This document shows, in pieces, positions 20,201 to 39,191 of a stretch of DNA of 39,787 nt. The stretch spans positions 1-39,787 of the forward strand of contig CAMARB010000014.1 in assembly GCA_945860355.1 (NCBI GenBank), written 5' to 3'. The number at the start of each line of letters is the position of its first letter. The first letter of the stretch is position 1. The notes below the pieces were generated by a model, which did not search any database, was not told where the DNA came from, and saw only the letters and a list, made by a program, of their open reading frames with translations. Both the position numbers and the translations under genes were made by a program. Origin of the DNA: Chthoniobacter flavus. Lineage in GTDB: Bacteria > Verrucomicrobiota > Verrucomicrobiia > Chthoniobacterales > Chthoniobacteraceae.

Positions 20201-23200
20201 AGCTGAGCGCAAGCCCCGCAAGATCCGCAGTGGAACTCGAGGCCCGTCTAACGGACACCGTGTAGGTTTTGATCGTGGAGGCGTCCTGGGCGGTGACAAC
20301 GACGCTGATCTGGTTGTCCCCGACGTCCAGAGCGGTCGCGCCGCTGGCGGCTCCCAAGGAGACGGGCTCGCCATTGACCCGCACCGACGCAGTCGAGTCG
20401 GCCGTTGCCGGGGTGACCGTTATCGATGCGACTGAGTTGGGAACATTGGCCGTGTATTGGGTGACGCCGCCGGAGAACACCGGGCTCAGCCCACCAGAGC
20501 TGAGATCAAGCCCAGCGAGATCCGCATTGGAACTCTGGGCGCGAACGACGCGGACGATGTACACCCGTTCGGTGACGCCGTCCTGCGCGGTCACCACCGT
20601 GGTCATCGTGTTGGCGCCCACCGAGAGCGCGACGGGCGCGCTGGCCACGCCCGAGACAACCGGCGCGCCGTTGATCCGGACCTTTGCACTCGGCTCGAAG
20701 GCCACCGGAACCAGGCTCAGGGCGGAGGTCGCGTTGGGAACCAGCACCGTGTAATCAGTGACTCCGCTGGCAAATGCGGGCGAAAGCGAGCCGGTGCTGG
20801 GAGTCATATTCGCCAGGAATGCGTTGCTGTCGCCGGGGTGAAGGAATCGGGCGGTGAGGTTCCCCTCGATCTGGCGCCGCTCTGCGGTGGTAAGCGCCAC
20901 GCCGTAGACAAAGACGTCGCCGATATTGCCGTTGAAAGTGGTCCACCCATCCGGGTTGTTTCGGCCGACATTGAAGGCGTTGGCAAAGGGGCCCGCCACA
21001 TTGGGCAACAGCGAGGTCATATCGCTGGCGGAGCTTTCATTCAGGATCTCGGCGCCGTTGGCGAACACCTGGAACTGCCCCGTCGGCTGGACAACCAGGC
21101 TGAGGATGGTGGCCTCGCCGTCAGGAATGGTGGCGCTGCTGCTGAAAAAGGCGCCGTTGCGGAAACCGACCACCTGCCCGGTGCTGTTGCGGATGCCCAG
21201 AGTGAGCCGGTTGTAGAAGAGGTCCACAATCGAAGTCCACGGCGTGGCAACGGAATTGCGCTTGGGCCGGACCGCCACGACGATCGTCGCCCCGTGGATT
21301 TTCACCGGCTCGCTGTAGAGGCCCTGGCGGAATCCGTCTCCGTCCAGATACCGATTATCCAACCAGCGGACACCGTTGAGCGTCTCGGTGGCGGGTGAGC
21401 CCATTGCGGCCAGGGTCTGGCCCGGGGGCTGATGAGCCACCCAATCGCCGGTGTTTCCGATGGCGGGCAGGTTGGATGTCACCGCCGAAAAAAGCAGCTC
21501 GGCCGGACGCGGGAGATCGATGCCGTTGAGCACGAAGTTGAGCTCGGCGGGAGCGGGGCCGGCGACGAGGATCGTCTTTTCGGCGGAGGGCTGAAAGGCG
21601 CCCCCGCCAGCGGCCACATACCACAAACCGTCCTGCACGGCCTGGGTGAAGTTGCCAGCCTCGTCCGTGGTCGCCGTGAAAGCCGGGTCATCGGCGGCGC
21701 CGACGGAACGCGAAAACCAAACCGATGCGCCCGCAGCAGCCGAGCCGTCGCTCCGGCGGATCACACGGCCGCTGATCCGCGCTTTCGGCGCCAATGTGAA
21801 ACTGATACCGGAGATGTTTGCAGTGCTGACCACGACCCTCTGTTCGGCGGAGGCATTGTAGTCGGCCCGGGCGGCTGTCAGATACCAGGTGCCGGGAGTC
21901 AGCGCCCGACGGAAGCCACCGGCCGCATCGGCCACCGCGGAAATACCCGCGCCTCCCGGGGCATCGGCTATGGTGACGGTGGCGCCCGCGAGCGGCTCCC
22001 CCGTGGAGCTCATCACCGAACCGGCAACCGTGAATTGGGGTGGAGTGTTTTGCGGGTCGATCGGGCTGGAAGCGAAGTCGGCTTCCACGTTGTCGTTGAA
22101 ACCGTCGCCGTCGCTGTCGAGCACGAGCTGCGAGGCAGAGAGGAAAGTTTCGTGGACGCGGGCGTTGAGGATCAGCCCGTCGAAAAACTCGCGGCTCGCG
22201 GTGTCGCTGGTGGTTTGCGAGTAACCGACGCGAGAGCATTTGCCTTGTGCAGCGGCATCATTGACCGGGCCGTTGTAAGAGCGCGTCGCGACCCGCACGC
22301 CGTTGAGGAAGAAGTGGGCGGTGCTGCCGTTGAAGGCGAGCGCCACATGCTGCCATCGGCCAAGGGCGGCGCTGACATTGATGGGCCAGAGCCCCGCCCC
22401 ATCAAGCCGCGCCATCCATTGGCCCGCCCGCAGCCCAAAACCGCTTCCATCCCCCCCTGCGAACTCGTTGCCGCTGTCGAACACCGCCTCGTAGTTGACT
22501 CCACCTTGGGATGCGCGCGGTTTGACCCAGGCCGAAAGGGTCCGGACGCGGCCGTTGCGGGCCCCGCTTTGGGCGATGGTCGAGGTGCCGTTGAAGTCTG
22601 TGGGCGTGACCGGCGAGAACGCGGCCAGCAGGTCGCCGCGCCGCGTCAACTCCTGGCGCACCTCAGAGGCAGTCAGCGGCACATTATAAAAGCGCACATC
22701 TTCGAAACTCCCCTTGAAGAGGCTGCCAGACCAGCCGCGACCCAGGTAGTTGGCCTGCATGGCTGTGGGACCGTTGGCGGCAAGCACGTCCAGCGGCGTG
22801 AGGGTCGTGGAGGCAGAGGCCTCCTGGACGCCGCCGACGTAGAGTCTGGCGTTGCCACCGTCGAGGCTGAAGGCGAGATGCTGCCAGGCGCCGGGAGTGA
22901 GCCGGCTGGTGCTCGTGAGCGTGGCGGTGGTTTCCCCGTTGCTGACGGAAAGCACCGCGTTGCCCGACGCGTTGCGCACAAGCTTCAGCGCGGCGGCAGC
23001 GCTTTTGCCCAGGAAAAGGAGGGGTTCCTCCACGCCCATGGCGTTGGCCGGTTTGACCCAGCAGGAAAAGGAAAGCGCGGGAGCATCGGCGAGGCTGCGG
23101 TCCAGAACGGCGTAATCGTCGAGGCCGTCAAACGTCATCACAGAGGAGTTGAAGGCGGCGTCGGGACCGTGCTCGGGAGCGCCTCGGAGAACGGCATGGA

Positions 23201-25598
23201 GCGCGCCAAACTCATCCCACCAGATTTGACCGTCGGGTTCCTCAGTTCGGTAGCTGGCGATGAGTCCGCGCGGTTTGGTGAGGCTCTGCGCATAAAAGGC
23301 ATCCCACCAGCCGCCCCAGGGGATGTGGCTAAAATGCACACCGTCGCTGACCGACCACCACATCGAGTAGTCGTGATCGGCGATGGCGGTGCCGCTAAGG
23401 ATCCCGCCGAGCGGCTGTGCGCATCCGCGCACGATCGCGTCGTCCTGAATGGTGGTGCCGTCGATGCGGCTGTACCCGCCCACCAAGGCGCGGCCACGCA
23501 CGACGGCTCCCCACTCCAACTGGGCGCGGTCGCGGACGCGTGCTTTGCCTTCCACCAGCGCGTTGCCCTCCACCAGTGCGCTGCCGCTGACAGTCGCTGA
23601 ACCTTGGACGGTGGCGCTGCCCTGGACAACGGCGTGGTCCTCCACGCGCGCCGCGCCGAGCACTTTGGCCGACCCGAGCACTTTGGCATTGGGCCCGACA
23701 TAAGCCGTGGAGGAGACCGTGGCCAAGGGGCCCACAACACCGCCGCCATTGCCGTGTGTGCGGTGGCCGTTGGGGGTGGCCACTTGAAAGGAATGCGGCG
23801 CGGGCTCGGCGTTCAACAGGCGCACCTCGTAGGCGTAACGCAATCGGTCGGCGTGTTTGTCGATGGGCTTGGTGTTCCTGAGGCTCTCAAGCTCAAGCGC
23901 CGTTTTGGCAGGCGTGGCCGCCACGATGAGGAACGCCTGGGTTTCGTTGGCGTTTAGGGTGAAGCTCTGCGTGCCCGGCGCCCAGACCGGCGAATAGCGG
24001 ACGGTGTCCCCGGCGGAAATTGCGGCAAGACACCAGCGCCAATCCTCACCGGCCCCCGCCAGGTCAAGACCGCGCAATTCGACGGTGATGGTGGCGCCCG
24101 GCGACGCCGTCAGATCGTGCATCTGATAAGCCCAGCTGTCCGGCGCGCGCTCCAGCGGCACCCGCCACCAGCCCGGTTTGTCCTGCTGCGGGATCAACTG
24201 CGCCCCTTGTTTCCAGAAATGCTCGGCCCGGTTGCTCTCGGTCCCCCAGTGCTGGGCGCGCAACCGGGCCTTTTCCACGAAATCGAGCATTGGCCAGCGC
24301 TTGCAGCACTCTAAGGCGACGTCCTTGACCGAAGTGCCGACGGGGAGTGCCGCGGCAAGCTTCTCGATCAGCGTCAGTTCCAGAGGCCCATCGCGCCATG
24401 CCTTGGCCGTGAAGTTTTGGGGCAACCCGAACTGCGTGCCGTAATCATCGAGAGCCAAATAGTAGCGTTGGTCGGCGTAAATGTGGCGCTTATGGTCGGG
24501 GCGGTAGTTGGAGTTTCCGGTGAGGTTGTCGATCGCGGGGATGGCGTTGGGAATGGCCGCGAAGAAGTGGAGATTCCGCGCCGCCCGCAAATAGTTGGCG
24601 TGGCTTTCCCAGTGGCCGCCGGTCAAAAATCCCGGCTGGTGCATCTGGATCACGTGGCCGAACTCATGCGGCACGGGGTTGCCCCAGCCCTCATCGCCCA
24701 AGCCACCCCAACCCACGTTGAGGTAGCCGCGATTCGTGGAGTGACCACCGGCCCAAAATCCGCCGTACCACGTGACAAAGTTGACTTTGGAACGCGGTCC
24801 CGTGGCCGACTTGAAATCGAGGAAGGGCTCGTTGTAGCCCAGTTTCTTGCAGTAAACCTGATAACTTTCCTCGCACATGCGCAGCGCGCGCCGGGCGTGG
24901 GTGGGGGTGAAACTGGTGTCGGCCGGATTCCACCAGACGCAGACATGTTTGCTTTCCATACGCGCGGCGGTGGCGGCGCTCAGCGGCGGGAGGAAATTGG
25001 TGTTCCGGTCGAGCGCGGGAGCGCTGCCCCCGACGTCGCCGACCTCCACGTAATCGATCTCAAATTGACCGCTCCCCTCCACGATAGGGGTGATTCGTAG
25101 GTCGCGCAGATTGTCGCGCCAGAACACCTCCAGGCCCATGTCGAGGCGGTAGGTGTGGAAGGCGCCGTCTTTCGGGATGCTGGCCGATGGCATCACAAAC
25201 CTGCGGCTGGTTTCGAAGCCGATGCGGGTTGATGTGCCGAATTCAAACTGGACGTCGCCGGTATAGCCAGCGGGCAGCTTGACGCGGATCTGCAGGTAAT
25301 CGTTGAAGCCCAGGTCGAGGTCGGGCCCATTGGCAAGGGCATTGAGGCTGATGGAAGCGTCGGTGCTGGCGGAGCTGTCATCGCCCACGAGAAGGCCGCC
25401 CGTGACGCCCAGTCCGCTGGTATGGGAGCCGATCCACCCCTCCAGATTGCCGTCGGTGTTCCATGCGCCCAACGAGGTGCTACCAGTCAGCCGGTCGACC
25501 ACATCGACCCCGACCACGGTGACGTTTTGCTGAGCGACGGCGGCCCGGGCGGCGATAGAGAGGAGTGCGAAGAGGAGCCAAGAGAAAATGTTACGCAT
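17280..25598 (-). CDS. Giant secreted multidomain protein with metalloprotease-like, hexapeptide, LamG and cadherin-like domains
   Basis: The protein has 2772 residues. The ATG at 25598 gives a signal peptide (MRNIFSWLLFALLSIAARAAVAQ); the frame upstream is not leader-like. Visible parts, by approximate residue: 30-190 a beta-sandwich; 210-480 a DUF6055-like domain with HEFGH at 311-315, a zincin-type metal site; 633-730 hexapeptide repeats (SATVQGSATVSGSALVEGNA); 820-980 and 1000-1155 LamG/concanavalin-like sandwiches; 1189-1340 two carboxypeptidase-regulatory-like folds; 1363-1586 another LamG-like domain; 1590-2385 eight cadherin-like repeats; 2387-2772 a tail (GAFSGKLLLGG) like those ending other verrucomicrobial surface proteins. 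It is probably a cell-surface or released glycan- or protein-binding enzyme. It runs against its neighbours and lies between direct repeats. Confidence 0.85.
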   Translation of the reverse strand: MRNIFSWLLFALLSIAARAAVAQQNVTVVGVDVVDRLTGSTSLGAWNTDGNLEGWIGSHTSGLGVTGGLLVGDDSSASTDASISLNALANGPDLDLGFNDYLQIRVKLPAGYTGDVQFEFGTSTRIGFETSRRFVMPSASIPKDGAFHTYRLDMGLEVFWRDNLRDLRITPIVEGSGQFEIDYVEVGDVGGSAPALDRNTNFLPPLSAATAARMESKHVCVWWNPADTSFTPTHARRALRMCEESYQVYCKKLGYNEPFLDFKSATGPRSKVNFVTWYGGFWAGGHSTNRGYLNVGWGGLGDEGWGNPVPHEFGHVIQMHQPGFLTGGHWESHANYLRAARNLHFFAAIPNAIPAIDNLTGNSNYRPDHKRHIYADQRYYLALDDYGTQFGLPQNFTAKAWRDGPLELTLIEKLAAALPVGTSVKDVALECCKRWPMLDFVEKARLRAQHWGTESNRAEHFWKQGAQLIPQQDKPGWWRVPLERAPDSWAYQMHDLTASPGATITVELRGLDLAGAGEDWRWCLAAISAGDTVRYSPVWAPGTQSFTLNANETQAFLIVAATPAKTALELESLRNTKPIDKHADRLRYAYEVRLLNAEPAPHSFQVATPNGHRTHGNGGGVVGPLATVSSTAYVGPNAKVLGSAKVLGAARVEDHAVVQGSATVQGSATVSGSALVEGNALVEGKARVRDRAQLEWGAVVRGRALVGGYSRIDGTTIQDDAIVRGCAQPLGGILSGTAIADHDYSMWWSVSDGVHFSHIPWGGWWDAFYAQSLTKPRGLIASYRTEEPDGQIWWDEFGALHAVLRGAPEHGPDAAFNSSVMTFDGLDDYAVLDRSLADAPALSFSCWVKPANAMGVEEPLLFLGKSAAAALKLVRNASGNAVLSVSNGETTATLTSTSRLTPGAWQHLAFSLDGGNARLYVGGVQEASASTTLTPLDVLAANGPTAMQANYLGRGWSGSLFKGSFEDVRFYNVPLTASEVRQELTRRGDLLAAFSPVTPTDFNGTSTIAQSGARNGRVRTLSAWVKPRASQGGVNYEAVFDSGNEFAGGDGSGFGLRAGQWMARLDGAGLWPINVSAALGRWQHVALAFNGSTAHFFLNGVRVATRSYNGPVNDAAAQGKCSRVGYSQTTSDTASREFFDGLILNARVHETFLSASQLVLDSDGDGFNDNVEADFASSPIDPQNTPPQFTVAGSVMSSTGEPLAGATVTIADAPGGAGISAVADAAGGFRRALTPGTWYLTAARADYNASAEQRVVVSTANISGISFTLAPKARISGRVIRRSDGSAAAGASVWFSRSVGAADDPAFTATTDEAGNFTQAVQDGLWYVAAGGGAFQPSAEKTILVAGPAPAELNFVLNGIDLPRPAELLFSAVTSNLPAIGNTGDWVAHQPPGQTLAAMGSPATETLNGVRWLDNRYLDGDGFRQGLYSEPVKIHGATIVVAVRPKRNSVATPWTSIVDLFYNRLTLGIRNSTGQVVGFRNGAFFSSSATIPDGEATILSLVVQPTGQFQVFANGAEILNESSASDMTSLLPNVAGPFANAFNVGRNNPDGWTTFNGNIGDVFVYGVALTTAERRQIEGNLTARFLHPGDSNAFLANMTPSTGSLSPAFASGVTDYTVLVPNATSALSLVPVAFEPSAKVRINGAPVVSGVASAPVALSVGANTMTTVVTAQDGVTERVYIVRVVRAQSSNADLAGLDLSSGGLSPVFSGGVTQYTANVPNSVASITVTPATADSTASVRVNGEPVSLGAASGATALDVGDNQISVVVTAQDASTIKTYTVSVRRASSSTADLAGLALSSGTLSPAFSREVTDYTALVPNATSVLSLVPVTLDPTANLRINGSPVASGVASAPVALSVGSNTMTTVVTAQDGVTQRVYTVRVLRDPSSNAELAGLALGSGVLSPVFSSGVTQYTANVSNAAASVTVTPATADATASVRVNGEPVSSGAASSPITLAVGVNQIRVVVTAQDQTTVATYTVSVSRAPSSNADLAGLTLSSGPLSPAFSSTVTQYTLTVPYDTAMLTVTPIAADATASVQVNGAPLASGTASAPIPLQAGLNTISVGLTSQDATTALVYTVLVTRTAPSANADLSALAPSTGTLSPTLDPSQTSYTLAVPYSVESIRLAPGTVHPSATVKVNGAPVASGTASEPIPLAVGANTVSVVVTAEDATTTKSYAVVVTRAPVANDTGLAGLTPAEGALSPVFDVNTTSYRLDYTTPVLSTRLLPVTRHTSQKVTVNGKPVASGKFSADIALPVGESTIQVVVTAPDRVTQRTYTVEVRRPAIAAADLSSLRLSEGSLSPAFSADTTQYAVLVPETVTAVKVTAEAAQPRSLITVGGVTVPSGRASAWNKLAPGENAIAVVVTAEDGVTTKTYTLTITRQPGFAGAYDGVAVPVADTPDPGSAVALLGMTVSRTGAFSGKLLLGGRATPVSLRGVMDVSGVARFGSRATTDSLVISTPGRPALTLSMRMDVQFPFTHQIVGTLSSNSQQVADFVLNRRLYSAAANLVAPRIKVPVDVLDPATDNGRYTAFFKALSPEEQGLEENAYPQGDGWAVLTVRSSGAVSMVGELADGQAFTYTNYLSQDRVLPFHVARGGGGGSASGRITFRDVPGQSDADAAGLRWFKRANPRDAAYPQGWPGGIRVDFFASKFLPPAVTQKTVLGVEPVVAPSANALLLLTGGGEPFDFVNRLAVGLRAVIDQGAPVGGSPSSRLRLMLGADGKIGGQFQGTGPVTRIRGAVFQKTRSGHGYFLAAPAPGATKESGKMNVATP
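18444..20829 (-). repeat. Eight tandem cadherin-like repeats (~298 bp each) inside the giant gene
   Basis: Each unit encodes about 99 residues with the pattern ADLAGLxLSSGxLSPxF, then VTxYT, VRVNGxPV, and VVVTAQDxxTxxTYTVxVxR, matching the cadherin-like beta-sandwich family PF12733. Units 1 and 3 are much more alike than either is to unit 2, and units 2 and 4 pair likewise, showing a duplicated two-unit block with a 594-bp period. Units 5-8 are more diverged. Confidence 0.9.
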
Positions 25599-25744
25599 AA
25601 CGGTGCACTCCGCTTCTCTCCTCAAGCCGGAGTCAAAGTTACATTTTTTCCGACACTTTCTTCCGAGCAGCACAAGAATGAGTGGGCGTGATACCTGCGG
25701 AACATTCACCAAAGAGCCCGAGAAGCGCGGGTGACCCGCAAATG

Positions 25745-27312: not shown

Positions 27313-27393
27313 CGCCGTGGACCGGTTCCCCGCCGGAACCCGAGGGTGACCGTTGCGCTTGCCCCAAAGGCAAATCCCTCTAGTTTCGCGGCC

Positions 27394-28632
27394 ATGGACA
27401 TCCCTCCCGTTCCGGTTCCCCGGTTTGCCCGGCGCGATTTTCTTCAGCGAACGGCTTGGCTGGCAGCCGCCGCGGCAACGTCCCCGTGGCGGATGCTGGC
27501 GCAGGAAACGGCGACCCTGCCCTTCGCCAACGGGGAACGTCCCCTGGTGCGGTATCCCCAGAAACGCCCCCTGCTCCGGCTCACCTCGCGACCGCCCCAG
27601 CTCGAGACGCCCTTCGCGGTTTTCAACGAGGGCCCCATCACCCCCAACGACGCCTTTTTCGTCCGATACCATCTGCCCCAAATACCCACCGAAATCGACC
27701 CGGACACGTTCCGCGTCACGATCCGCGGCAACGTGCGCGCTCCGTTGAGCCTGTCCCTTGCGGACATCAAAACCGGCTTTGAGGAGGTGGAACTGGTGGC
27801 CGTCAACCAGTGCTCCGGCAACAGCCGCGGTTTTTTCGAGCGCCGCGTGGGCGGCGGCCAGCTCGGCAACGGCGCCATGGGCAACGCGCGTTGGCGCGGG
27901 GTGCGGCTCAAGGATGTCTTGGAAAAAGCCGGGGTCGGTTCGGGCGCAAAACAGGTCACGTTCAACGGGCTCGACCAGCCTGCGGTGGCGCAGACCCCCG
28001 ATTTTGTGAAGGCGCTCGAGATCGACCACGCCCTCGACGGCGAGGTGATGCTCGCCTACGGGATGAACGGCGAGGATCTCCCGCTCCTCAACGGATACCC
28101 GCTGCGCCTGGTGGTGCCGGGTTATTACGGCACCTACTGGGTCAAACATCTCAGCGAAATCACGGTCGTCGACGAGGTGTTCGACGGGTTCTGGATGGGC
28201 ACGGCTTACCGGATCCCGAACACGCCGGGCGCGTGCCTGCCCCCGGGGACCGCCGCCAAATCGACGGCGCCGATCGGCCGGTTCAATGTGCGCTCGTTTA
28301 TCACCAGCCCCGGCGACGCCGCCACTCTGACCGTCGGCCGCGAGATTTTTGTGCGCGGGATCGCTTTTGACGGAGGCGCGGGCATCCGCGAGGTGCTGGT
28401 CTCGGCCGATGGCGGGCGCTCCTGGCAGGCGGCCCAGCTCGGGAAAGATCTGGGCCGGTATTCTTTCCGGGAATGGACCCTCGCGTTGACTCCCACCGCG
28501 GTCGGCGCGTTGGAGTTGAAGGTCAAGGCCACCAACCGCCTCGGTGAATCCCAGCCGCTGGAGCCCCTGTGGAACCCGGCCGGCTACATGCGCAACGTGG
28601 TGGAAACCGTGCGCGTCCAGGTGACGGCCTAA
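27394..28632 (+). CDS. sorA: Molybdopterin sulfite oxidase-family dehydrogenase, SorA-like
   Basis: The protein has 412 residues. The ATG at 27394 gives a twin-arginine signal (RFARRDFLQRTAWLAAAAA), as needed for export of folded molybdoenzymes. NQCSGNSRG contains C140, the expected cysteine ligand to molybdenum, and LRLVVPGYYGTYWVKHL is a cofactor-binding segment of the family. A Mo-co dimerisation immunoglobulin-like domain follows (REVLVSADGGRSWQAAQLG). It should oxidise sulfite to sulfate in the periplasm and pass electrons to the cytochrome encoded ten bases downstream, as in SorAB. Other substrates of the family cannot be excluded, so the symbol is a working name. Confidence 0.85.
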   Translation: MDIPPVPVPRFARRDFLQRTAWLAAAAATSPWRMLAQETATLPFANGERPLVRYPQKRPLLRLTSRPPQLETPFAVFNEGPITPNDAFFVRYHLPQIPTEIDPDTFRVTIRGNVRAPLSLSLADIKTGFEEVELVAVNQCSGNSRGFFERRVGGGQLGNGAMGNARWRGVRLKDVLEKAGVGSGAKQVTFNGLDQPAVAQTPDFVKALEIDHALDGEVMLAYGMNGEDLPLLNGYPLRLVVPGYYGTYWVKHLSEITVVDEVFDGFWMGTAYRIPNTPGACLPPGTAAKSTAPIGRFNVRSFITSPGDAATLTVGREIFVRGIAFDGGAGIREVLVSADGGRSWQAAQLGKDLGRYSFREWTLALTPTAVGALELKVKATNRLGESQPLEPLWNPAGYMRNVVETVRVQVTA

Positions 28633-28642
28633 CTTTTCTCCC

Positions 28643-28957
28643 ATGAAAACTCGCCTCTCCCTTCTCCTTTGCGCCGCAGCGTTGAGCGCCCCGGGGTTTT
28701 CCAAGCCGCTCAAAATTGAGCTACCCCCTGAAACCGCGGGGTTTAAGCCCGGGCCGGGCGCCGAACTCGCGACGGGCCAATGCCTGGCGTGTCATTCCGC
28801 GGAATACATCACCACCCAACCGCCGCTGCCCGCGTCGTTCTGGAAAGCCAGCATCGAAAAAATGCGGACGAAATACGGCGCGCAGATCGCGCCGGACCAG
28901 GCGCAGGCGCTGGTGGATTACCTCGCACACTCCTCGGCGGCGCCGGAAAAGAAGTAG
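28643..28957 (+). CDS. sorB: Mono-heme cytochrome c, SorB-like electron acceptor
   Basis: The protein has 104 residues with a signal peptide (MKTRLSLLLCAAALSAPGFS). The heme motif CLACH is at 47-51, followed by SAEYITTQPPLPASFWKASI and KMRTKYGAQI, which match SorB-type small cytochromes; the methionine there is the probable sixth ligand. It should accept electrons from the adjacent molybdoenzyme. Spacing of ten bases indicates co-transcription. A decayed second copy lies at 35877-36050, on the far side of the pseudopilin operon. Confidence 0.88.
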   Translation: MKTRLSLLLCAAALSAPGFSKPLKIELPPETAGFKPGPGAELATGQCLACHSAEYITTQPPLPASFWKASIEKMRTKYGAQIAPDQAQALVDYLAHSSAAPEKK

Positions 28958-28988
28958 CCGCAACTCCGGAGGGGGCGGACACCTTCAC

Positions 28989-29032
28989 GCGGAACAGCGG
29001 AGAGCGCGGAGAGCTTTTTGAAAATCACTGAA
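28989..29032 (+). repeat. Dispersed GC-rich repeat, copy 3 (short)
   Basis: This truncated copy reads CACGCGGAACAGCGGAGAGC and continues to AGCTTTTTGAAAATCACTGA. The typical ends are missing. It sits just after the sorB gene, at the left border of the block holding the pseudopilin operon. Confidence 0.65.
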
Positions 29033-29123
29033 TCGGAGCCGGGATCCGTCCCCCGTTCCCAGATCGTCCCCCCCCTGGACTGGGCATCATCCGGCTTGGA
29101 CGCCGAGAACCGTGGCCGTTCGT

Positions 29124-29912
29124 TTAACGCCCCTTGCCGCTGCCTTCGGGCTTGGCTCGCTGACTCAGATACGTTTGATACGCGGCGAATTCATCCATTT
29201 TTGCGCGCACGACCGCTGGCACGTGAACTCCACTGCTCGGTGGCGCCTCAAAGGTGAATTTGCCGAGCGTGTGGCCCGCCTTAAATGCAACCGGCAAACC
29301 TGTCTCAACGTTAAACCACGCTTCGCGGACGTCTTGTTTTGAACCATCAAGGATGGCATCCAGCTGTTCCGGGTTCGCTGGCTCCCTTCCAACGTCGCGG
29401 AAATATGCGCAGAGCTGACCTTGGGCGGCTTCGACTTTGACGAAAAGTTTCGGCGTAACCCAGTGGACGCCCGGAATGTGCTTGCGAAACAGTTGCTCAA
29501 CCGTCGGATAGCTGGCCAGATCCTGGAGTAGGACATCCTTGCTCCGCGCAGTCGCCAAAAACTCGTAGTTCCCGGATTGAAATGCCTCCTCCTTCTGGCC
29601 GCTTTCCATAACGGTGATCCGCGCGGATACCGGCTCGGCGATCACGTAGCGGACAGCCGCCTCGCGCGACCCTGCGGCGGGATCGATGGCTTTTTCGGCC
29701 CCCCCGTCTTTTCTGCCATTTTCGCGGGTCTCTTTGTAGCTGTAATGCACCGTCCACGCCAACGGACCTGGCGGCGGGACGACGACAACTTTTGGCGGGC
29801 CCGCCAATTGCGGTGCCGCCGACTGTGAATAGCCAGCCAGCACCCCGGCCAAGCTCAGACACACCGCGCTGACGTGAACACCGAGCCGCTGTGACAAAGT
29901 TCGCGTATTCAT
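29124..29912 (-). CDS. Exported hypothetical protein, last gene of the pseudopilin operon
   Basis: The protein has 262 residues and I do not recognise a family. A signal peptide is visible (LGVHVSAVCLSLAGVLAGYSQ), then a proline-rich linker (KVVVVPPPGPLAWTVHY). The rest appears alpha/beta, with a YSYKETRENGRKDGG loop near residue 60 and one later cysteine in GQLCAYFRDVG. It starts 12 bases after the stop of the cassette A gene and is on the same strand, so it is likely co-transcribed. It may be a secreted substrate or assembly partner of the pseudopilin system, which is inference. Its 3' end is the left limit of the block. Confidence 0.7.
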   Translation of the reverse strand: MNTRTLSQRLGVHVSAVCLSLAGVLAGYSQSAAPQLAGPPKVVVVPPPGPLAWTVHYSYKETRENGRKDGGAEKAIDPAAGSREAAVRYVIAEPVSARITVMESGQKEEAFQSGNYEFLATARSKDVLLQDLASYPTVEQLFRKHIPGVHWVTPKLFVKVEAAQGQLCAYFRDVGREPANPEQLDAILDGSKQDVREAWFNVETGLPVAFKAGHTLGKFTFEAPPSSGVHVPAVVRAKMDEFAAYQTYLSQRAKPEGSGKGR

Positions 29913-29924
29913 AAATGTTGCAGC

Positions 29925-32900
29925 CTATTCGAAGATCGTTTCCCGCTGGATATCGACAATCTCCCCCGTGAACCGGTCGATCGCGATATGATACCAGAAC
30001 CGGCGTTCGCCGGACCTGATGAACGTAGCCAACGATGTGGCGGAGGGCGGCAGCTTGCCGCTTTGCGCGATGACATCCACCAACAAGTTCCAAGTCCGGG
30101 TATTGGCCGGATCCGCCAGGGCGCGGGTGATGACTTGGCGATCCTTATGGTTAACCACTCCAGTGACGCCGATGTTGCTGTCGACGGGGATGCTCGTGGT
30201 GACTTTCCCCGCGAGCGCGGCAATACCCGCCGGGTTGAGCAACGGTTGCGCATCGAGTTCGGCCCGAATCGCGAGGGCGTAGTCTTTTGCCTTCTGGCTC
30301 GGGAGCGCCGCCCCTTCGCGGATCGCCGCCCCGCTCAGCAGCGCCTCCAGCACCGCCGCCGGTGCCGCGTTGGGATTGACCACCCCGGCACGGATCGGTT
30401 TTTCCGTCAAACTGAAGAGGTCGAGCAAAGCGCCGTCGCCCGGGTTGGACGGGTCGTCCGGGTCGCCAAACAGGTTGAGCGACGTCCAGGGATCATCCCG
30501 AAATGCCAAGCCCATGTCGGCCACGCTTTGGAACGGTCGATTGAGGATCTCCGGCCGCTGGCTGGGCACGGTAAAGGGCGCGCCAGCATCGGCCGGCCGC
30601 CGTATGCCATCGCGATTGACGATCACGGAAGGACTACCAATTTTGGGATTAGACTCGTATTGCTCGGGGATTCTTCCACCAGGCGACGTCCACGCGGCTG
30701 GCGGCCAAAATAGGTGAGTATAACGCAGGGGGCCGGTGGTTTTATTGATCGCAAGGCTTCCCCCGGTTGTGGAGGAGAGTCCGTAACGCGTGGTGCGCGG
30801 ATCGATAAACATCGCATGTAACTGAACGTGGTTTCCTCTCGTGGCAACGAGAGCGTTGGTGTCCCCAGGCAATACACTCACCACATAACCATGAGTTTGC
30901 GACCAATTAGGGATCACTTGATAATTTACCCAGACTCCGCCGATGTTCTTCTGCAGAGCGAACGTCATCGGCACGTTGTAGTTTGAAAACAGGCCATGCT
31001 GCCCATAGCGCTGGTTATGGAGCGCTGCACTGGTATAGGGAGCGTTCACCTCACCGACGTTATAGCCAATCACCGGCATGCTCGCTCCCGCAATGGTGTC
31101 GATCGGCTGGGCTGATGTCGCTCTCGCCACGGTCGGTTTCAGATAGATTGGCTGCGAAAAGCTGTTCGCGGCATCGACATTGAATCCGATATAGTCTGTC
31201 GCGAAAGCCGCCGTCCGGACCGGCGATTTTACTTCATAACTACGATTGTATACAGGATCGGGGTCAGTGTAGTCCTGCGCACGTAATGTGAACCATGTCA
31301 TATGGCTTTGCCCGGCGAAAGCGATGCGGAAGCTCCCCGCCGCGACTCTGCCATCCGCCACGTTCTTATGCGGATTCCACAGCTGGAAGGTGATGAAGGT
31401 GGCGGCCTTCGAATCATTGGGCTCCGGAGCCAGGTCGCGTCGGCGGAAGCGCGACTCGCCGAGAAAATGGAAATAGGGCAGATTTTCCACCCCCGCGACA
31501 TCATCGACGCGGACGCCGGTCAGGGGATTGGCAACGCCGTATTGGATGATGGTGGGGTCATCGTTGGCGTCCCACTGATCGATAATCGAGGCGCCGATGC
31601 GCAGGATCTGGTAGCTGCTCTTGTTGTCACGGCCTGTGTCGGTAAAGAGGCTGTCCTGAAGCATGGGATTGGCGATAGACCCCTCCAGCAATCCCGCCTT
31701 GAGCATTTCAAAAAAATCCGGCTCGCGATTGGCCGCGGCGACTTGGTCGAGCCGCAACACTGTCACGTTGGTCGAATTGCGATAGAGCCACGTGCTGCCG
31801 CCAGTCCCGTTGACCGGTGTCAGGCCGAAATACAGCGCGATGTCGGCAAGGTTTTGGGGAGCTTCGAAGGCCTTGAGTTTGGACAGCGGGAACCGGGTGA
31901 GAATCAACGGTTCTCCGACGACAGCGGTTGTGCCGTCGCGCCGGGTGAACGGACTCAACACGCGCACACCGGTGAAGCGTCGATTGACGGCAGTCGGCAG
32001 GTCTTGATTGGTCTTGTACTGGAACCCGGTGCCGGCATCGATGGTCGGCGCCCAGGACGGCTGGTTGAGTTCGCGACTGGCGGTGGTGAGAAACGGCAGC
32101 AATGCGGCGGGCAAGAGCGCTGGATTGGCCTTTTGGTAGGCGATCAGGTCGTTGCGGCCCAGGAACAGATTATCGGATTGCCCGCCTACTACCGGTGTGC
32201 GCATCCAGCCATAGGGTTCGCCCCAGGTCTTCACCAGCGCTTGCAGCGCATTGGCGCCGCCGGCCGGGTGGCGCCAATCGACGACCTTGCTGATGTTCGT
32301 GGTGGCGCCGGGCAGAACTTTGAGATCAGCCCAAAGCAGCGAGCCTTTTCTGGAAACATCCAACGCCGGCGCGGCATTGCCATAACCGGCGACGTTGATG
32401 TCGAGCAGGCCGGAAACATCGTAAACCTGATAGGCATAGCGGCCGACGACATAATCCGGGTTCGGCGCGCCAGTCGCGGTGAGCGACGTGGCGTTGGCTC
32501 TGGCGTTGTTATCCGTCGTCGGATTGGTCCCATTGCGCGCGGTGTAAATCCAGTCTGGGACTTGCCCCGTCTGAAGGTTGAGGGCGGGCTCAAAAAAGAC
32601 CGGCGCGCTCCAACGGGTTTCCGCCACCTTGCGGCCATCCATCGCCGGCGTGGCGGTGGAGACGTTTGAGGCCCGTGCGCTGCCGGCGGGCGGATTGAGG
32701 GCGGCATTGTGGAATGGCACATTATTGGCGCTCTGTTTGAACAATAGCGCAAGTCTCGGATCGGCCAGCACCGCCGCTTTAACCGCGCGCTCGGGTCGCA
32801 TGCTGGCAGGGGTTTGGACGCTGAAGGAGTTCTTCTGATCGGGCGTGACACTGAGGCTGGTGGCGCCCGCCTTCATTTCGCCCACGAGATCGGCGATCAC

Positions 32901-33101
32901 GGTGGATTTGGCCAACTCCGCGATAGTCTCGGCCTGGCGGATTGCGACGTCGGCGACCGAACGGTTGCCGTTGGTAGACGCCGTCAGCATGAAGGCCAGG
33001 ATCAACCCCAACAGCAATGCCACCAGCGACAACACCACCACCAGCGCGACCCCCGAATCACGGGTACTGCCACGGGCCAGAAAAACGGAGGAAGCTTTCA
33101 T
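29925..33101 (-). CDS. Verru_Chthon cassette protein A-like, large PilX-type protein
   Basis: The protein has 1058 residues. The ATG at 33101 overlaps the stop of the previous gene (ATGA); an earlier TTG at 33128 is rejected. After a short basic leader comes SGVALVVVLSLVALLLGLILAFMLT (shown here only in part as SGVALVVVLSLVALLLG), a single hydrophobic helix like the N-terminus of PilX/GspK minor pseudopilins but lacking the usual Glu5. The rest is a long extracytoplasmic region without cysteines of note, rich in Asn, Thr and aromatic residues. It matches the A member of the four-protein cassette known from Verrucomicrobium and Chthoniobacter. A role in tip formation or export of a pilus-like machine is inferred, not shown. 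Confidence 0.82.
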   Translation of the reverse strand: MKASSVFLARGSTRDSGVALVVVLSLVALLLGLILAFMLTASTNGNRSVADVAIRQAETIAELAKSTVIADLVGEMKAGATSLSVTPDQKNSFSVQTPASMRPERAVKAAVLADPRLALLFKQSANNVPFHNAALNPPAGSARASNVSTATPAMDGRKVAETRWSAPVFFEPALNLQTGQVPDWIYTARNGTNPTTDNNARANATSLTATGAPNPDYVVGRYAYQVYDVSGLLDINVAGYGNAAPALDVSRKGSLLWADLKVLPGATTNISKVVDWRHPAGGANALQALVKTWGEPYGWMRTPVVGGQSDNLFLGRNDLIAYQKANPALLPAALLPFLTTASRELNQPSWAPTIDAGTGFQYKTNQDLPTAVNRRFTGVRVLSPFTRRDGTTAVVGEPLILTRFPLSKLKAFEAPQNLADIALYFGLTPVNGTGGSTWLYRNSTNVTVLRLDQVAAANREPDFFEMLKAGLLEGSIANPMLQDSLFTDTGRDNKSSYQILRIGASIIDQWDANDDPTIIQYGVANPLTGVRVDDVAGVENLPYFHFLGESRFRRRDLAPEPNDSKAATFITFQLWNPHKNVADGRVAAGSFRIAFAGQSHMTWFTLRAQDYTDPDPVYNRSYEVKSPVRTAAFATDYIGFNVDAANSFSQPIYLKPTVARATSAQPIDTIAGASMPVIGYNVGEVNAPYTSAALHNQRYGQHGLFSNYNVPMTFALQKNIGGVWVNYQVIPNWSQTHGYVVSVLPGDTNALVATRGNHVQLHAMFIDPRTTRYGLSSTTGGSLAINKTTGPLRYTHLFWPPAAWTSPGGRIPEQYESNPKIGSPSVIVNRDGIRRPADAGAPFTVPSQRPEILNRPFQSVADMGLAFRDDPWTSLNLFGDPDDPSNPGDGALLDLFSLTEKPIRAGVVNPNAAPAAVLEALLSGAAIREGAALPSQKAKDYALAIRAELDAQPLLNPAGIAALAGKVTTSIPVDSNIGVTGVVNHKDRQVITRALADPANTRTWNLLVDVIAQSGKLPPSATSLATFIRSGERRFWYHIAIDRFTGEIVDIQRETIFE

Positions 33102-33940
33102 GGAATGAGAAACGTGCGTTGATAACAACCAATGGCTTGCAGCGCTTCCCTGGGGAGCCCGCCGTAGCCTCCCCTTGCCAGCGAATCCCGGATGCTTGCC
33201 CAGTTCGCAAGCGTGCTGGCGCCGCCGGCCGCGTCCGGGAGCGCGTCCGGGAATTGGGCAGCTAATTGCGGCAGGAAGGTCGCCCCCACCGCGCGCCGAT
33301 TGCGGTCGTTCATGACGACCAAGCTGATAACCAGTCCACGCAGATTCGCGCTGGTGGCCGGCGCCGTGGTTTCACGGGTAATGCCGGCGGCGCCTTGGAT
33401 GAGGTATTCGATTTCAAGGCGCAGGACGCTGCCGGAGATGGCCTGCACATTGTCCGCGGGGACCGCCGGGAACGGCTGCGATGCATCGAGATTGAGCGCG
33501 GCGCCGGTGGCGGAGCCGAACGTGTTGCCAATCGAGCCTCGCTGCAGAATCTCACCCTCGTTCGCGCTGTGCGTGAGCGAGTATGTCACCAATGAGACGG
33601 CTCGGGTGCCCACGCCGCCGAGGCTGATCAGGCCGCGGCTTCTGGCGAGGAACGACATCTTGTCATTTCCGGCAACCTGCGGAGTGCCATTCAGCGAGCT
33701 GAATTCGATCCGCGCGTCCTCGCGGATCACTATTTGGGAAAGGTCTGCAGCGATTTGGTTGAAGACCTGGCGCGCGATCGCGTCGTTGGCGGATTTGCTC
33801 TCGGCGCCGCGGATGGAATTGCGGGCAGAGTTTGTCACTTGCAGCGCCAATAACAGGATAACGCTTAAGACGGACATCGCCGCCAGCAACTCGATGAGAG
33901 TGATACCCGCCAGCCGCCTGCCCTTGCTGCTGGGGTTCAT
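33098..33940 (-). CDS. Verru_Chthon cassette protein C-like pseudopilin
   Basis: The protein has 280 residues from the ATG at 33940, which overlaps the previous stop (ATGA). The leader ends RRLAG and is followed by ITLIELLAAMSVLSVILLLA, a prepilin peptidase site with Ile at +1 and Glu at +5, then an N-methylated-type hydrophobic helix. The soluble part has NSIRGAESKSANDAIARQVF, a GspJ-like start, and a C-terminal LGRR-free globular region. It should be processed by a prepilin peptidase and inserted in the inner membrane. It fits the C position of the cassette. Confidence 0.84.
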   Translation of the reverse strand: MNPSSKGRRLAGITLIELLAAMSVLSVILLLALQVTNSARNSIRGAESKSANDAIARQVFNQIAADLSQIVIREDARIEFSSLNGTPQVAGNDKMSFLARSRGLISLGGVGTRAVSLVTYSLTHSANEGEILQRGSIGNTFGSATGAALNLDASQPFPAVPADNVQAISGSVLRLEIEYLIQGAAGITRETTAPATSANLRGLVISLVVMNDRNRRAVGATFLPQLAAQFPDALPDAAGGASTLANWASIRDSLARGGYGGLPREALQAIGCYQRTFLIP

Positions 33941-34425
33941 CGCTGAAATGCCGCCACAATTTCCACCGCCCCCTGCTCTTTACCAGCCGCCGCTTCTGCC
34001 GGCCAAGTCGCGCGAAGATGCAGGCTCGGCGGTTCCGACCTGGCACCGCCCGGTATCGTGAGGGCTCCGATGATCCGGCACATCGGGTTGCCAGTCGGGC
34101 CGGCGATGTCGCCATTATCCAAAACTTTGAGATCCACCGCAGTGGTCGCGTTGTCGGCCGACGCGGCAACTATTGGAATAGCCAGCTTGTAAAGGCGGCT
34201 TTCGGACGATTTGGACTTGAGCGCCAGGTTGACGTCGTCGCGGATACTTTCCATCGCCGACATCGCGTTGCCTTCGAGGGTGGAGGCCTGGATTTGGAGC
34301 ATCCCCACTGGAATCACCCCAATCAGCGCGGTAAGCGCGAAAACGAACAGGCCCAACGCGATGACGACTTCCACCAGCGTGAAACCGCTGGCGCTGAGTC
34401 GCGGGATTAGGGTGGGGTTTTTCAT
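33937..34425 (-). CDS. Verru_Chthon cassette protein B-like pseudopilin
   Basis: The protein has 162 residues from the ATG at 34425. The leader ends LSASG and is followed by FTLVEVVIALGLFVFALTAL, a standard type IV pilin/GspI-like processing site with Phe at +1 and Glu at +5. The soluble part is short, with EGNAMSAMESIRDDVNLALK as the helix extension. It starts 15 bases after the D gene stop and its own stop overlaps the C gene start, so the four genes are tightly coupled. It fits the B position of the cassette. Confidence 0.84.
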   Translation of the reverse strand: MKNPTLIPRLSASGFTLVEVVIALGLFVFALTALIGVIPVGMLQIQASTLEGNAMSAMESIRDDVNLALKSKSSESRLYKLAIPIVAASADNATTAVDLKVLDNGDIAGPTGNPMCRIIGALTIPGGARSEPPSLHLRATWPAEAAAGKEQGAVEIVAAFQR

Positions 34426-34440
34426 TCTGGCAAGACTCGC

Positions 34441-35127
34441 TTAGCGCGCGAACTGCAAGCTCTGGCCGATCAGACCGGAAACTTGAACAGCGGCGACTTG
34501 GGTTTTAACCGAGCCCACCACCTGGCCACCGCGTGTGGCTTGTAAGCCAATCTCCGTCCAGCGGGCGAGCGTCCCGACGTCCGCAGGCGGGACCATTCGG
34601 ACGCCACTTTCTTTCGAGGAAGCAGGCAGAACCCAAGCCTCGCCCGCGGGCGAGAAGCGAATCCAAGCCGCGTCCTTCGGCCGATCGCCGTTTTGCACGA
34701 CGGGACGAATGAAACTCGAATCGAGATCGTCGCTGAGTTTGTAATCAGCAAAGCGCGGGGCGGTCCAGGCGGCGCAGGCAGTGGCCCTCGATGTCGCCGA
34801 GTCGGCGCCGTCAATCGACTCATAGACCCCGACAAAGAATTCGGTCTTGGACTCGCTAACCTGGCCCAAGCGCACCCAAACATAGGTATTCCTGGCGATC
34901 GCATGGCTTCTCGCCCGATCGAGTTGTCCGGCCACGCCCGCGGCGACGTTCACCGGGCTTTGCGCGCTGCTCTGGATGCTGAACACAGTCCCAGCCGCGC
35001 CCAGCAGAATCGACATAACACTGATGACGGCGAGCAATTCAATCAGCGTGAAACCGCGCCTGCGACGCACTCGACAGCGGGTGCTCTGACTGGGTTGGAC
35101 AACCAACATGGGAGACGGCCTTGGCAT
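34441..35127 (-). CDS. Verru_Chthon cassette protein D-like pseudopilin
   Basis: The protein has 228 residues from the ATG at 35127; another ATG at 35109 and a TTG at 35199 are possible starts. The long basic leader (QSTRCRVRRRRG) precedes FTLIELLAVISVMSILLGAA, a GspH-like pseudopilin start with Glu at +5. The soluble part includes VAAGVAGQLDRARSHAIARN, as in GspH proteins. It is the first gene of the operon. No prepilin peptidase, ATPase or secretin is encoded nearby, so these must be supplied from elsewhere in the genome if the four proteins form a pseudopilus. Confidence 0.83.
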   Translation of the reverse strand: MPRPSPMLVVQPSQSTRCRVRRRRGFTLIELLAVISVMSILLGAAGTVFSIQSSAQSPVNVAAGVAGQLDRARSHAIARNTYVWVRLGQVSESKTEFFVGVYESIDGADSATSRATACAAWTAPRFADYKLSDDLDSSFIRPVVQNGDRPKDAAWIRFSPAGEAWVLPASSKESGVRMVPPADVGTLARWTEIGLQATRGGQVVGSVKTQVAAVQVSGLIGQSLQFAR

Positions 35128-35538
35128 AAGCTCAACAAGCAAAAGCGGATATTTAGACACCACGATAAGAAAGCTATCGTACAGCCGGAGACCCTTCAAG
35201 ACACTATTTGATGTGCAGCTGATTTCCGGACCTTATTGCGGGTTATTTTGCGGGGTGAAACTGGGTCCCAAACTGGCTCGGGGTTTTGTATCCTGCGGCG
35301 GCCCCGTTCTCCGGCAAGGGATTGGCTAAATTGAGCTATGGCGGCGGGGACTTGGGTTGAGGGAATCGCTGCTTAAAGGCAGGAGCACGAAACGAGCCAC
35401 CATTGGATTCAAAAACGGGGGAGTGCCGAGGGTAAAAAGGGGCTACGCCAGCAATCGGGCGGCTACAAAGCGGGTCGACGGCGCTAAAAGACAACGCCGC
35501 AGCATGCGTTCGATGCCAGCGGGACGCCTCCCGCGTTT
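35128..35538. promoter_or_regulatory. Upstream region of the pseudopilin operon
   Basis: No gene is visible. The promoter of the D-B-C-A operon should be here, on the minus strand. A small hairpin (ACGATA 35162-35167 with TATCGT 35175-35180) lies ~35 bases before the D start. AT-rich stretches occur at 35225-35260, but a specific -35/-10 pair cannot be chosen. The left part of the IS3 fragment begins at 35539. Confidence 0.35.
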
Positions 35539-35870
35539 TGAGGTGGACCCCGAAAATCGGGCCAGAGGATAAGCTATAGAAAACCGGCGACGGGGCGTAT
35601 CAACACAACCCAAGAAACCACCGCGAATGAAAGCCAAACGCCGCAGACACGATCCAGAATTCAAAGCCCGGGTAGCCCTCGAGGCGCTCAAGGGCATCAA
35701 AACAATCCAACAAATCGCCAAGGACTACGTGGTGCACCCCGTTCAGGTCTCCGACTGAAAAAAGAAGTTACAAGAGGGAGTGGCCTGGGTGTTCGAGCAA
35801 GGCGGCGCAGACAGGGGCGAGGAGGAGTTTGAGAGCCTGCAAGGGGACAGACAAAATCTCAGAGAAATCT
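35539..35870 (+). mobile_element. Truncated IS3-family element
   Basis: The left end TGAGGTGGACCCCGAAAATC at 35539 resembles IS3-family terminal inverted repeats, and an orfA-type gene starts 88 bases inside, as usual for the family. No orfB and no matching right inverted repeat are present. Similarity to the family stops near 35870, where the broken sorB copy begins. Confidence 0.75.
35627..35868 (+). pseudogene. IS3-family transposase orfA, nonsense mutation and truncated
   Basis: The frame reads [20 protein letters not shown], then [17 protein letters not shown] and TGA, then KKKLQEGVAWVF. Related proteins have Trp (TGG) at the place of the TGA. The helix-turn-helix region is intact but the chain loses its second half, so no active transposase is made. 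It borders the right-hand flank of the pseudopilin block and could have taken part in its arrival. Confidence 0.85.
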
Positions 35871-35876
35871 CAGCGC

Positions 35877-36052
35877 CCTCTCCTCATGGGTGCCGCAGCG
35901 TTGCGGCGTTGAGTATTCCGGGGTCGTCAGAGCCGCTCAAGATGAGCTCCCCGTGAAACCGCCGGGTTCAAGCCCGGACCAGGAGCCGCGCTCGCGAAGG
36001 GCCAATGCCTAGCGTGTCATTCTGTGGAATACGTCACAACCCAGCCCAATCC
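35877..36052 (+). pseudogene. Decayed copy of the sorB-like cytochrome gene
   Basis: The segment aligns to 28655-28826, from the signal peptide region past the heme motif, at roughly 80 percent by eye, with several one-base indels. The heme site reads TGC CTA GCG TGT CAT in the original frame (CLACH), but indels upstream break the reading frame and it has no start codon. It ends where the DUF167 gene stop codon lies, so the 3' half is missing. It is the right-hand partner of the direct repeats around the pseudopilin operon. Confidence 0.87.
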
Positions 36053-36347
36053 TCAGCGGCGCGCTCCCGGAACGGATTCCAGCAAACGCCGACGCAATTC
36101 CCCGCCGTTGAGCCCCTCCACAGCCACCACTTTGTCGCGGCTTTTTTCGCCGGAAACAAATTCCACAGCGCGCACGGAAACACCCAGTCGCTCGGCCAGA
36201 AAACCCCGGATCGCCTCGTTGGCTTTTCCCTCCAGAGCGGGCGCCGCGATCTTGATTTTCACGGTGTCGCCGTATTCCCCCCACCACCTCGTCGCGCCGG
36301 GCGTTGGGGATGACCCGTAGCCGAAGGGTCCCGGGAACTGCCGACAC
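36053..36347 (-). pseudogene. DUF167/YggU-family gene with a frameshift in a G6 tract
   Basis: From a GTG at 36347 the frame reads VSAVPGTLRLRVIPNARRDEVVG. A run of six G (six C on the plus strand) near 36278-36284 then shifts the frame. In the +1 frame the rest continues EYGDTVKIKIAAPALEGKAN and on to RDKVVAVEGLNGGELRRRLL. With five G the two halves give one normal ~96-residue DUF167 protein. The gene follows the CHAP-like gene by one base. Either it is a true frameshift, slippage corrects it, or the tract length is a sequencing error. Confidence 0.85.
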
Positions 36348-36348
36348 C

Positions 36349-36858
36349 TTACGTCCGGGGTTTGACGTACACTCCGATCAGCGGCCTGTGCGACGGTTTC
36401 GGTGAGTTGAAGTCGCTCACAAAACCTTGCGCGGTGCGGATTTCCACATGGCCCGCTCCCCGCCCGCCATAAACAATCACCGAACCCAAGGGCGCCTTGT
36501 AGGGGTCCTTCACATTGAGCTTTTTAAATCCGTAACTGCGCTGCAATTCCGAGCCGGCCTCCTTGGCGGTGGCGGTTTTTGGATAGGAATCGATGGTTTT
36601 GGAGGCGAGCAACGCCGTTTTCACATACCGCCAGCACCGGCTGATGGAATGTCCGCGCGCCCGGGCCTGCGCGATCTCGGCTGCCCGCAGCATCCGCGAA
36701 TCGTATCGGAAACGGCTGGATTGCGGGCCGAACAGTGAGATTTGGTCCGGATCGAGTTTCTTGGCCGTGGTGCGGTCGTACAGAGAGTCGCTCGCACGGG
36801 CACCTACCGGGAGGAGCACGAGCACAAGAACGACCAAGCTGAGCAGAGACCGGAACAT
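36349..36858 (-). CDS. Exported CHAP-like (NlpC/P60-type) protein
   Basis: The protein has 169 residues from the ATG at 36858, which starts a signal peptide (MFRSLLSLVVLVLVLLPVGA). A longer frame to 36966 adds a charged non-leader stretch and is rejected. SISRCWRYVKTALL (Cys near residue 74) and GSVIVYGGRGAGHVEIRTAQ (His near residue 137) resemble the catalytic Cys and His blocks of CHAP amidase/peptidase domains that cut peptidoglycan. Similarity is by motif only, so a non-catalytic relative is possible. The DUF167 gene follows by one base, suggesting coupling. Confidence 0.65.
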   Translation of the reverse strand: MFRSLLSLVVLVLVLLPVGARASDSLYDRTTAKKLDPDQISLFGPQSSRFRYDSRMLRAAEIAQARARGHSISRCWRYVKTALLASKTIDSYPKTATAKEAGSELQRSYGFKKLNVKDPYKAPLGSVIVYGGRGAGHVEIRTAQGFVSDFNSPKPSHRPLIGVYVKPRT

Positions 36859-37022
36859 GGGGCTGAAGTAAAACCGGCGGGAGGCTAGCCCAAGTTGGGG
36901 GCGGGTCAACCCGCTATTTTCCCGGCCCGGGCGGACGCGGGATTCCCTCGGGAAAGGCGGGTCCACCCGTCGCGGCGCCGAAAAACTTTCCCCGCCGCCG
37001 CCGCGCGCTAAGGTGCGGGCCT

Positions 37023-39191
37023 GTGAATCTGCACACGGCTCTGAGCGATCTGGATTGGCTGCCCCCGCAGCGCAGGCGCCAACTCGCCCGCTGCGAGCTG
37101 CAAACCGTCGAGGATCTGCTCTGCCATTTCCCGCGCCGGTATGAGGATCGCACCCGGTTTGACCGGTTTCCCCGGGGCGACCACGAACAACCTGTCTGCG
37201 TGTGCGGGACGGTCAAAAAGGTCACGCTGCGCCGGCTCCGAGGACGCCAGAAGATGTTCGACGCGGTGCTGGAGGAGGACAACGCACACGCCCTGAGCAC
37301 GCCCTTGGTTTGCCGCTGGTTCAACGCGCATTGGGTGGAGAAAGTCGTGGCCTGCGGGGTCCGCCTGGTGGTCTATGGCAAACCCAAACGCAGCGGCTCC
37401 CAGGTGATCATCTCGCATCCGGAGTTTGAGGTGGTGGAGGACGACGCCGAGAAAAGCGTGCATCTGGAGCGGATTACGCCCATCCACCGGGCCACCGCGG
37501 GGCTCTCCACCCGGGCGCTTCGCCAGCTGCTCTGGGAAACCCTCCACAAGCTCGAAGCCCGCGACGTCCCGGAGATTCTCCCCGCCGGACTCGATGAAAC
37601 GCCCCGCTGGCAGGCGCTGCGGCAGATCCATTTTCCCGACTCCTGGGAGACCTTGGCCCGGGCCCGCAGACACTTGGTGTTGCTCGAGTTTTTCGGGCTC
37701 CAACTCTGTGTCGCCGCCCGGCGCGCTGAACAACAGGCGCAACCGGGCCAGGCCCATTGCGGCTCCGGCGCGTGGATGGACCGGTTGCACCGGGCGCTGC
37801 CGTTTGCGCTCACCGGGGCTCAACAACGGGCCATCGGAGAGATCCGCGCGGACTTGGAGTCCCCTCGCCCGATGAACCGGCTCCTGCACGGCGACGTGGG
37901 TTCGGGCAAAACGCTGGTGGCCCTGAGCGCCATGCTGCTCGCGGTGGAAGCCGGGTATGAGGCGGCGCTGATGGCCCCAACACAAATCCTCGCCGAACAA
38001 CACTATCTCCAGTTCAAGCGCCTGCTGGAGCCCTTGGGAATCGGCGTGGCTCTGCGCACCGGCGCCCGCCGGGAGGACCCTCTGCCGCTGTTTAACCAAG
38101 GGATCCAACCGGCGCCCCCGGAGGAACCAGCGGCTACAGGGAAAGAGCGGAACGCCGCCCGGAACGCCCCCAAGAGAGCACTCCAGAGTTCCTCCCAGAG
38201 CTCCCCCCAGAACGGCGAGGCGCAGATTTTTGTGGGCACCCACGCCCTGCTGTTTGAGGGCACCGGACTGAACCGGCTGGGCCTCGCGGTGATCGACGAG
38301 CAGCACAAGTTCGGCGTACTCCAGCGCGCCAAACTGCGCGAACACGGCTCCGCGCCCGACGTCCTGGTGATGACCGCCACGCCCATTCCGCGCACCCTGA
38401 CCATGACCCTGTTCGGGGACCTCGATGTGAGCACCCTGGACGAGTTGCCGGCCAACCGCGGAAAAATCATCACCGCCGCCCGGGACAGCGCGAAGCTGCC
38501 CGAAGCGGTGCAATTCCTCAAAACCCAGCTCCAAACCGGACGCCAAGCCTACATCGTTTATCCGCTGATTGATGAGAGCGAGAAACTCGAGGCCAAAGCC
38601 GCCGCCGCCGAGTTCGCCCGCTGGCAGGAGTTCCTGGCCCCGATGCGCTGCGAGCTGCTCCATGGCCGGGTGCCGCCGGAGGAAAAAGACGCCATTATGG
38701 GCAGGTTCCGCCGGGGCGAAACCCAGGCGCTGGTGGCCACCACGGTGATCGAGGTGGGGATCGACGTGCCCAACGCCAACCTCATGCTCATCGAGAACGC
38801 CGAGCGGTTCGGCCTCGCACAGCTCCACCAGCTCCGGGGCCGGATCGGCCGGGGCGCCCACAAAAGCTACTGCGTTCTGCTGAGCTCGAAACTGGAGGAA
38901 CCCGAGGCGCGAGAGAAACTCGAGGTGCTCTGCGCGCACCACAACGGATTCGAGATCGCCGAGGCCGACCTGCGTCTGCGCGGCCCGGGGGACCTCCTCG
39001 GGACGGCCCAAAGCGGGCTGCCGCCGATCCGCATCGGCGACCTGCTGGCCGACACCGACCTCATGATCCTGGCCCGCGAACAGGCGCAGGCCGTTCTTGC
39101 GCGGGATCCCCGGCTGGAAGCGGAGGAACACCGGGTGTTGCGCGGTTTTTTGGAGGAGCCCCGGAAAATCACGCTGGCCCAGGTGAGTTAA
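37023..39191 (+). CDS. recG: ATP-dependent DNA helicase RecG
   Basis: The protein has 722 residues from a GTG at 37023, with AAGGTG about 10 bases upstream. It has an N-terminal wedge/OB domain (CVCGTVKKVTLRRLRGRQKM), Walker A GDVGSGKT at 290-297, DEQH at 425-428, MTATPIPRTL, and the late motifs ATTVIEVGIDVPNANLM and QLRGRIGRG. RecG remodels stalled replication forks and Holliday junctions. Between motif Ia and the IFVGTHALL block, residues ~343-405 hold a Pro/Ser/Gln-rich insertion about 30 residues longer than the usual linker. Otherwise the enzyme looks complete. It marks the core-genome side of this window. Confidence 0.97.
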   Translation: MNLHTALSDLDWLPPQRRRQLARCELQTVEDLLCHFPRRYEDRTRFDRFPRGDHEQPVCVCGTVKKVTLRRLRGRQKMFDAVLEEDNAHALSTPLVCRWFNAHWVEKVVACGVRLVVYGKPKRSGSQVIISHPEFEVVEDDAEKSVHLERITPIHRATAGLSTRALRQLLWETLHKLEARDVPEILPAGLDETPRWQALRQIHFPDSWETLARARRHLVLLEFFGLQLCVAARRAEQQAQPGQAHCGSGAWMDRLHRALPFALTGAQQRAIGEIRADLESPRPMNRLLHGDVGSGKTLVALSAMLLAVEAGYEAALMAPTQILAEQHYLQFKRLLEPLGIGVALRTGARREDPLPLFNQGIQPAPPEEPAATGKERNAARNAPKRALQSSSQSSPQNGEAQIFVGTHALLFEGTGLNRLGLAVIDEQHKFGVLQRAKLREHGSAPDVLVMTATPIPRTLTMTLFGDLDVSTLDELPANRGKIITAARDSAKLPEAVQFLKTQLQTGRQAYIVYPLIDESEKLEAKAAAAEFARWQEFLAPMRCELLHGRVPPEEKDAIMGRFRRGETQALVATTVIEVGIDVPNANLMLIENAERFGLAQLHQLRGRIGRGAHKSYCVLLSSKLEEPEAREKLEVLCAHHNGFEIAEADLRLRGPGDLLGTAQSGLPPIRIGDLLADTDLMILAREQAQAVLARDPRLEAEEHRVLRGFLEEPRKITLAQVS

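Follow-up and report, generated by a model that had tools for sequence, protein, structure and literature searches.

The sorB-like stump to the right of a pseudopilin cassette in Chthoniobacter flavus is confirmed as a decayed sorB, and it is on balance probably the remains of a decayed second copy of sorAB, cut on its left by an IS3-type element and lying on its right at a rearrangement breakpoint. Judged from sequence comparisons, the stump is most likely an ordinary scar of IS rearrangement and not the footprint of a cassette that landed in a sorB-DUF167 neighbourhood. The window analysed (39,787 nucleotides) is the whole of contig C14 of a draft genome that comprises 276 contigs and is 86.5% complete.

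The intact locus consists of sorA, encoding the catalytic subunit of a sulfite dehydrogenase (27346–28632, plus strand; NCBIfam SorA 683.7 bits, cut-off 600), and sorB, encoding its c-type cytochrome subunit (28643–28957, plus strand; NCBIfam SorB 103.9 bits, cut-off 93). In exceeding both cut-offs the pair resembles the known SorAB sulfite dehydrogenases, from which the window differs in having an additional decayed sorB fragment 7 kb downstream. Left of sorA, a 2810-aa reading frame (17280–25712, minus strand) contains repeated stretches that look cadherin-like by eye, and a short dispersed repeat, of which the genome has about 27 copies, lies between sorB and the cassette (28984–29032). The decayed 5' part of the second sorB (35868–36047, plus strand) was detected by blastn, tblastn and a shuffle-tested alignment. 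Positions 35903–36046 matched 28676–28821 of the intact gene at 119 of 146 positions (82% identity, two gaps, E 1e-33 by blastn), and the best reading frame shared 28 of 33 amino acids with it (E 2e-16 by tblastn), which bears out the sequence-only reading that a second sorB match, with indels and without a start codon, is present to the right of the cassette. Weaker homology extends leftwards to approximately 35841–35868, into the region of the sorB start and perhaps also of the sorA stop; the joint left alignment scored 16 against a shuffle mean of 7.7, a score reached by none of 1000 shuffles, while sorA-derived sequence to the left of the stump, before the start codon, was not significant alone in alignments against shuffles. 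Significant sorB homology combined with disabling changes (two 1-bp deletions, an 8-bp insertion and loss of the start codon) identifies the stump as a sorB pseudogene. It stops after codon 60, the second half of the gene (codons 61–104) being missing, and its last homologous position is 36047, five bases short of the stop codon of DUF167 (36053–36055), so that it does abut that stop as had been noted.

The DUF167 (YggU) gene (36053–36347, minus strand; PF02594, 81 bits with both frames joined) is frameshifted in the assembly and appears as two overlapping pieces in different frames, with the shift near a C6 run at about 36277–36285 (region 36270–36295) reflecting a genuine pseudogene or else a fault of the assembly. 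Together with an adjoining uncharacterised conserved gene (36349–36966, minus strand) and recG (37023–39191, plus strand), it forms a block that is conserved, in the same order, in relatives. Neither DUF167 nor recG was found near sorAB in any of approximately 108 fetched loci (flanks up to 10 kb), and none of 27 DUF167 loci contained sorB. The abutment had been taken to imply an older sorB-DUF167 neighbourhood, but no fetched locus places the two side by side, and the proposed synteny check, in which sorB and DUF167 would be convergent neighbours where the cassette is absent, found no such empty site among these loci. The gene convergent with DUF167 was instead a U32 peptidase (named from its sequence), located 5–70 bp away in G002 (same genus), G017 and G008, three relatives belonging to three genera, and about 3 kb away in G012; these arrangements indicate that the U32 peptidase is the ancestral convergent neighbour. 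In the present genome the U32 gene is on contig C7, where its upstream neighbours are conserved and its 3' side carries a small gene and dispersed repeats, not DUF167. The U32-DUF167 junction is therefore broken here and, given the intact pair in relatives, the contact between sorB and DUF167 is a derived junction or breakpoint. A weak U32 tail that looks decayed adjoins the DUF167 stop in G003, of the same genus (locus L060, 9209–9307; E 4.5 alone), which hints that the U32-DUF167 junction may decay repeatedly.

Between the two sorB copies lie the D-B-C-A operon, an exported protein gene and an IS3 orfA fragment, as described earlier. The minus strand encodes homologues of Verru_Chthon cassette proteins A (29925–33128; TIGR02600 18.6 bits, cut-off 332), C (33098–33940; TIGR02599 38.5 bits, cut-off 256.5), B (33937–34425; TIGR02598 27.4 bits, cut-off 51.4) and D (34441–35199; TIGR02596 36.0 bits, cut-off 70; TIGR02532 above its cut-off), the true start of D probably being an internal ATG closer to 35130. 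Adjacency on a single strand, the D-B-C-A order, prepilin-like N termini (D, B and C) and a large A protein are shared with Verru_Chthon cassettes, several of which occur per genome in the same order of bacteria, and protein A has homologues over its full length in other Chthoniobacterales cassettes (35–37% identity, about 1045 residues). The window cassette differs in that none of its four proteins reached the curated cut-off of its A, B, C or D model, for which reason it is termed Verru_Chthon-type and the models do not place it among the members, and in the conserved secreted fifth protein that follows A. Literature searches on the cassette names, within the papers available, yielded nothing useful.

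The fifth gene, here 'E' (29124–29912, minus strand), encodes a 262-aa secreted protein for which no family model or structural relative was found in Pfam, NCBIfam or PDB. Adjacent homologues were present downstream of A in other genomes: of 18 other cassettes that had a readable A end, 14 or 15 carried a recognisable relative that began at most about 30 bases from A (phmmer 1e-5 to 1e-44). These secreted proteins of 210–280 aa share W, G, T and P residues that are invariant, as well as an IDxETRLPV motif conserved at the C terminus, and are encoded directly downstream of A in most of the cassettes examined across the order, a pattern which argues that the gene belongs with the cassette and is not a stray gene.

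Since the sorB copies form direct repeats, oriented alike, around a block whose G+C is a little lower (0.59–0.63, against 0.65 for the window), and since no close relative of the window cassette was found in the genus, a DNA circle or a fragment from outside that bore the cassette together with part of sorB could have recombined at a resident sorB, leaving one intact and one truncated repeat. We regard such an insertion footprint as unlikely: at 18% divergence, a 150-bp stump under no selection would have to date from a very distant event; after a single crossover a complete 3' end would be expected beside the old downstream neighbour, whereas the second half of the gene is missing; and the ancestral neighbour of DUF167 was not sorB.

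The relationship between the two copies bears on a different history. Among all sorB sequences fetched they are mutual nearest relatives, the next best sorB sharing 26 of 33 residues with the intact copy and 23 of 33 with the stump. sorB was present in 15 of 40 genomes of the family, with a second match only in this one; a complete second sorAB on the right in relatives, which had been named as the finding that would speak for an old duplication, was accordingly not seen, no relative carrying two sorB copies. Base differences between stump and intact copy numbered 3, 6 and 14 at codon positions one, two and three (14 of 23 at third positions; p 0.005 against a uniform distribution), an excess which shows that coding constraint acted at some stage of their divergence, a good part of which therefore took place while the sequence was coding. 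Changes in the intact copy itself favour third positions too (p 0.18 as a bound, and about 0.065 if a more realistic share is assumed) and, because it adds third-position changes of its own, the codon test does not separate a late-decayed duplicate from a copy that was dead since the duplication. The distribution of sorAB in the family is patchy and the sorA tree does not follow genus, this genome grouping with G029, G002, G012 and G006 and with G001 and G003 (same genus) placed elsewhere, which points to sorAB either moving between lineages or being duplicated, lost and kept patchily. Under a replacement, the stump would be what is left of the original resident sorB, and a related bacterium would later have supplied the intact sorAB together with its left flank. 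Such a history would agree with this patchiness, with a tree that mixes genera and with the finding that no window gene left of sorA adjoins sorAB in the fetched loci, but it is improbable given that the collections yielded no sorB closer to the stump than the intact one. The nearest sorA sequences are only 75–80% identical, so that no compared genome is near enough to show the state before the cassette, and a sorA scan of genome contigs turned up neither a relative exceeding 73% identity nor a linked DUF167.

A chain of touching dispersed-repeat fragments makes up the spacer from D to the stump, two IS3-type ends and one of IS5 type among them; the sequence-only reading had recorded the IS3 fragment but missed the remainder. 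The chain comprises repeat R1 (35207–35308; copies on C44 and C34, 84–87% identical); an inverted IS3-type right end (35302–35360, minus strand; 93% identical to C82:2199–2141, the right end of the C82 IS3-type element); an IS5-type remnant on the minus strand (35357–35538) in two pieces (35357–35503 and 35498–35538), which lacks the transposase-coding part and whose two pieces recur on C20 on either side of an IS5-type transposase C-terminus; and an IS3-type left end with part of orfA (35539–35835, plus strand; 96% identical to C82:701–997; HTH_Tnp_1 30.7 bits; transpos_IS3 E 8e-6). The IS3 match ends at 35835, immediately before the first stump homology. As in the scars of IS-mediated deletion and rearrangement, the truncated ends of IS3-type and IS5-type elements lie directly against one another and against a truncated gene, and the window shows no difference of principle from such scars with pseudogene stumps. 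A composite transposon was considered and rejected, as the same IS was not found on both sides of the block; no IS remnant was found left of the cassette (28958–29123), the remnants lying on the right side only. A false join of two unlinked regions at the IS3 repeat would be favoured by the 96 bases (35591–35686) identical to C82, by the number of contigs in the draft and by other repeats at contig ends. The other repeat fragments are, however, only about 80–94% identical to their copies, a level that assemblers separate, and the mutual nearest relationship of the sorB copies fits a single genome, making an assembly artefact a decidedly remote explanation.

A second cassette on C20 (18809–25952) contains D-B-C-A and a fifth gene, although the product of the latter has no recognisable homology to the window protein, and is bracketed by inverted IS5-type transposase remnants; at the window cassette the same IS5-type remnant occupies the corresponding position upstream of D. 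No such remnants were found at the cassettes on C26, C111, C133 and C3, and a protein search found the IS5-type transposase C-terminus only on C20. That the pseudopilin cassettes of this lineage were carried by IS5-type elements, with the sorB copies marking an IS-driven capture of a sorB segment, is very doubtful. The C14 and C20 copies of the IS5 remnant share 81% identity, against a far greater divergence between the two cassettes, so that remnants and cassettes did not spread together recently.

For the decayed second sorAB, we propose that a copy sister to the intact one, presumably once a complete sorAB, would have come to lie beside DUF167 after the U32-DUF167 junction broke. An IS3-type element would then have made the left cut, removing sorA and the sorB start, and a breakpoint just past the DUF167 stop would have cut the right end of the second sorB; the order of these events is likewise conjectural. 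The interval between the copies is occupied by the cassette and nested IS remnants, and the cassette may have been inserted between them. This reading draws on the sister relationship of the copies, the third-position bias, the IS3 end at the stump, the intact U32-DUF167 pair in relatives and the patchiness of sorAB; counting against it are the equivocal codon test, the lack of a proven sorA remnant and of a second copy in relatives.

Analysis of the stump thus sets right a synteny inference that was tempting but wrong and illustrates how a pseudogene stump can lie at a derived breakpoint, and the conserved fifth protein, a family without a model, provides a concrete handle on the pseudopilin cassette system.
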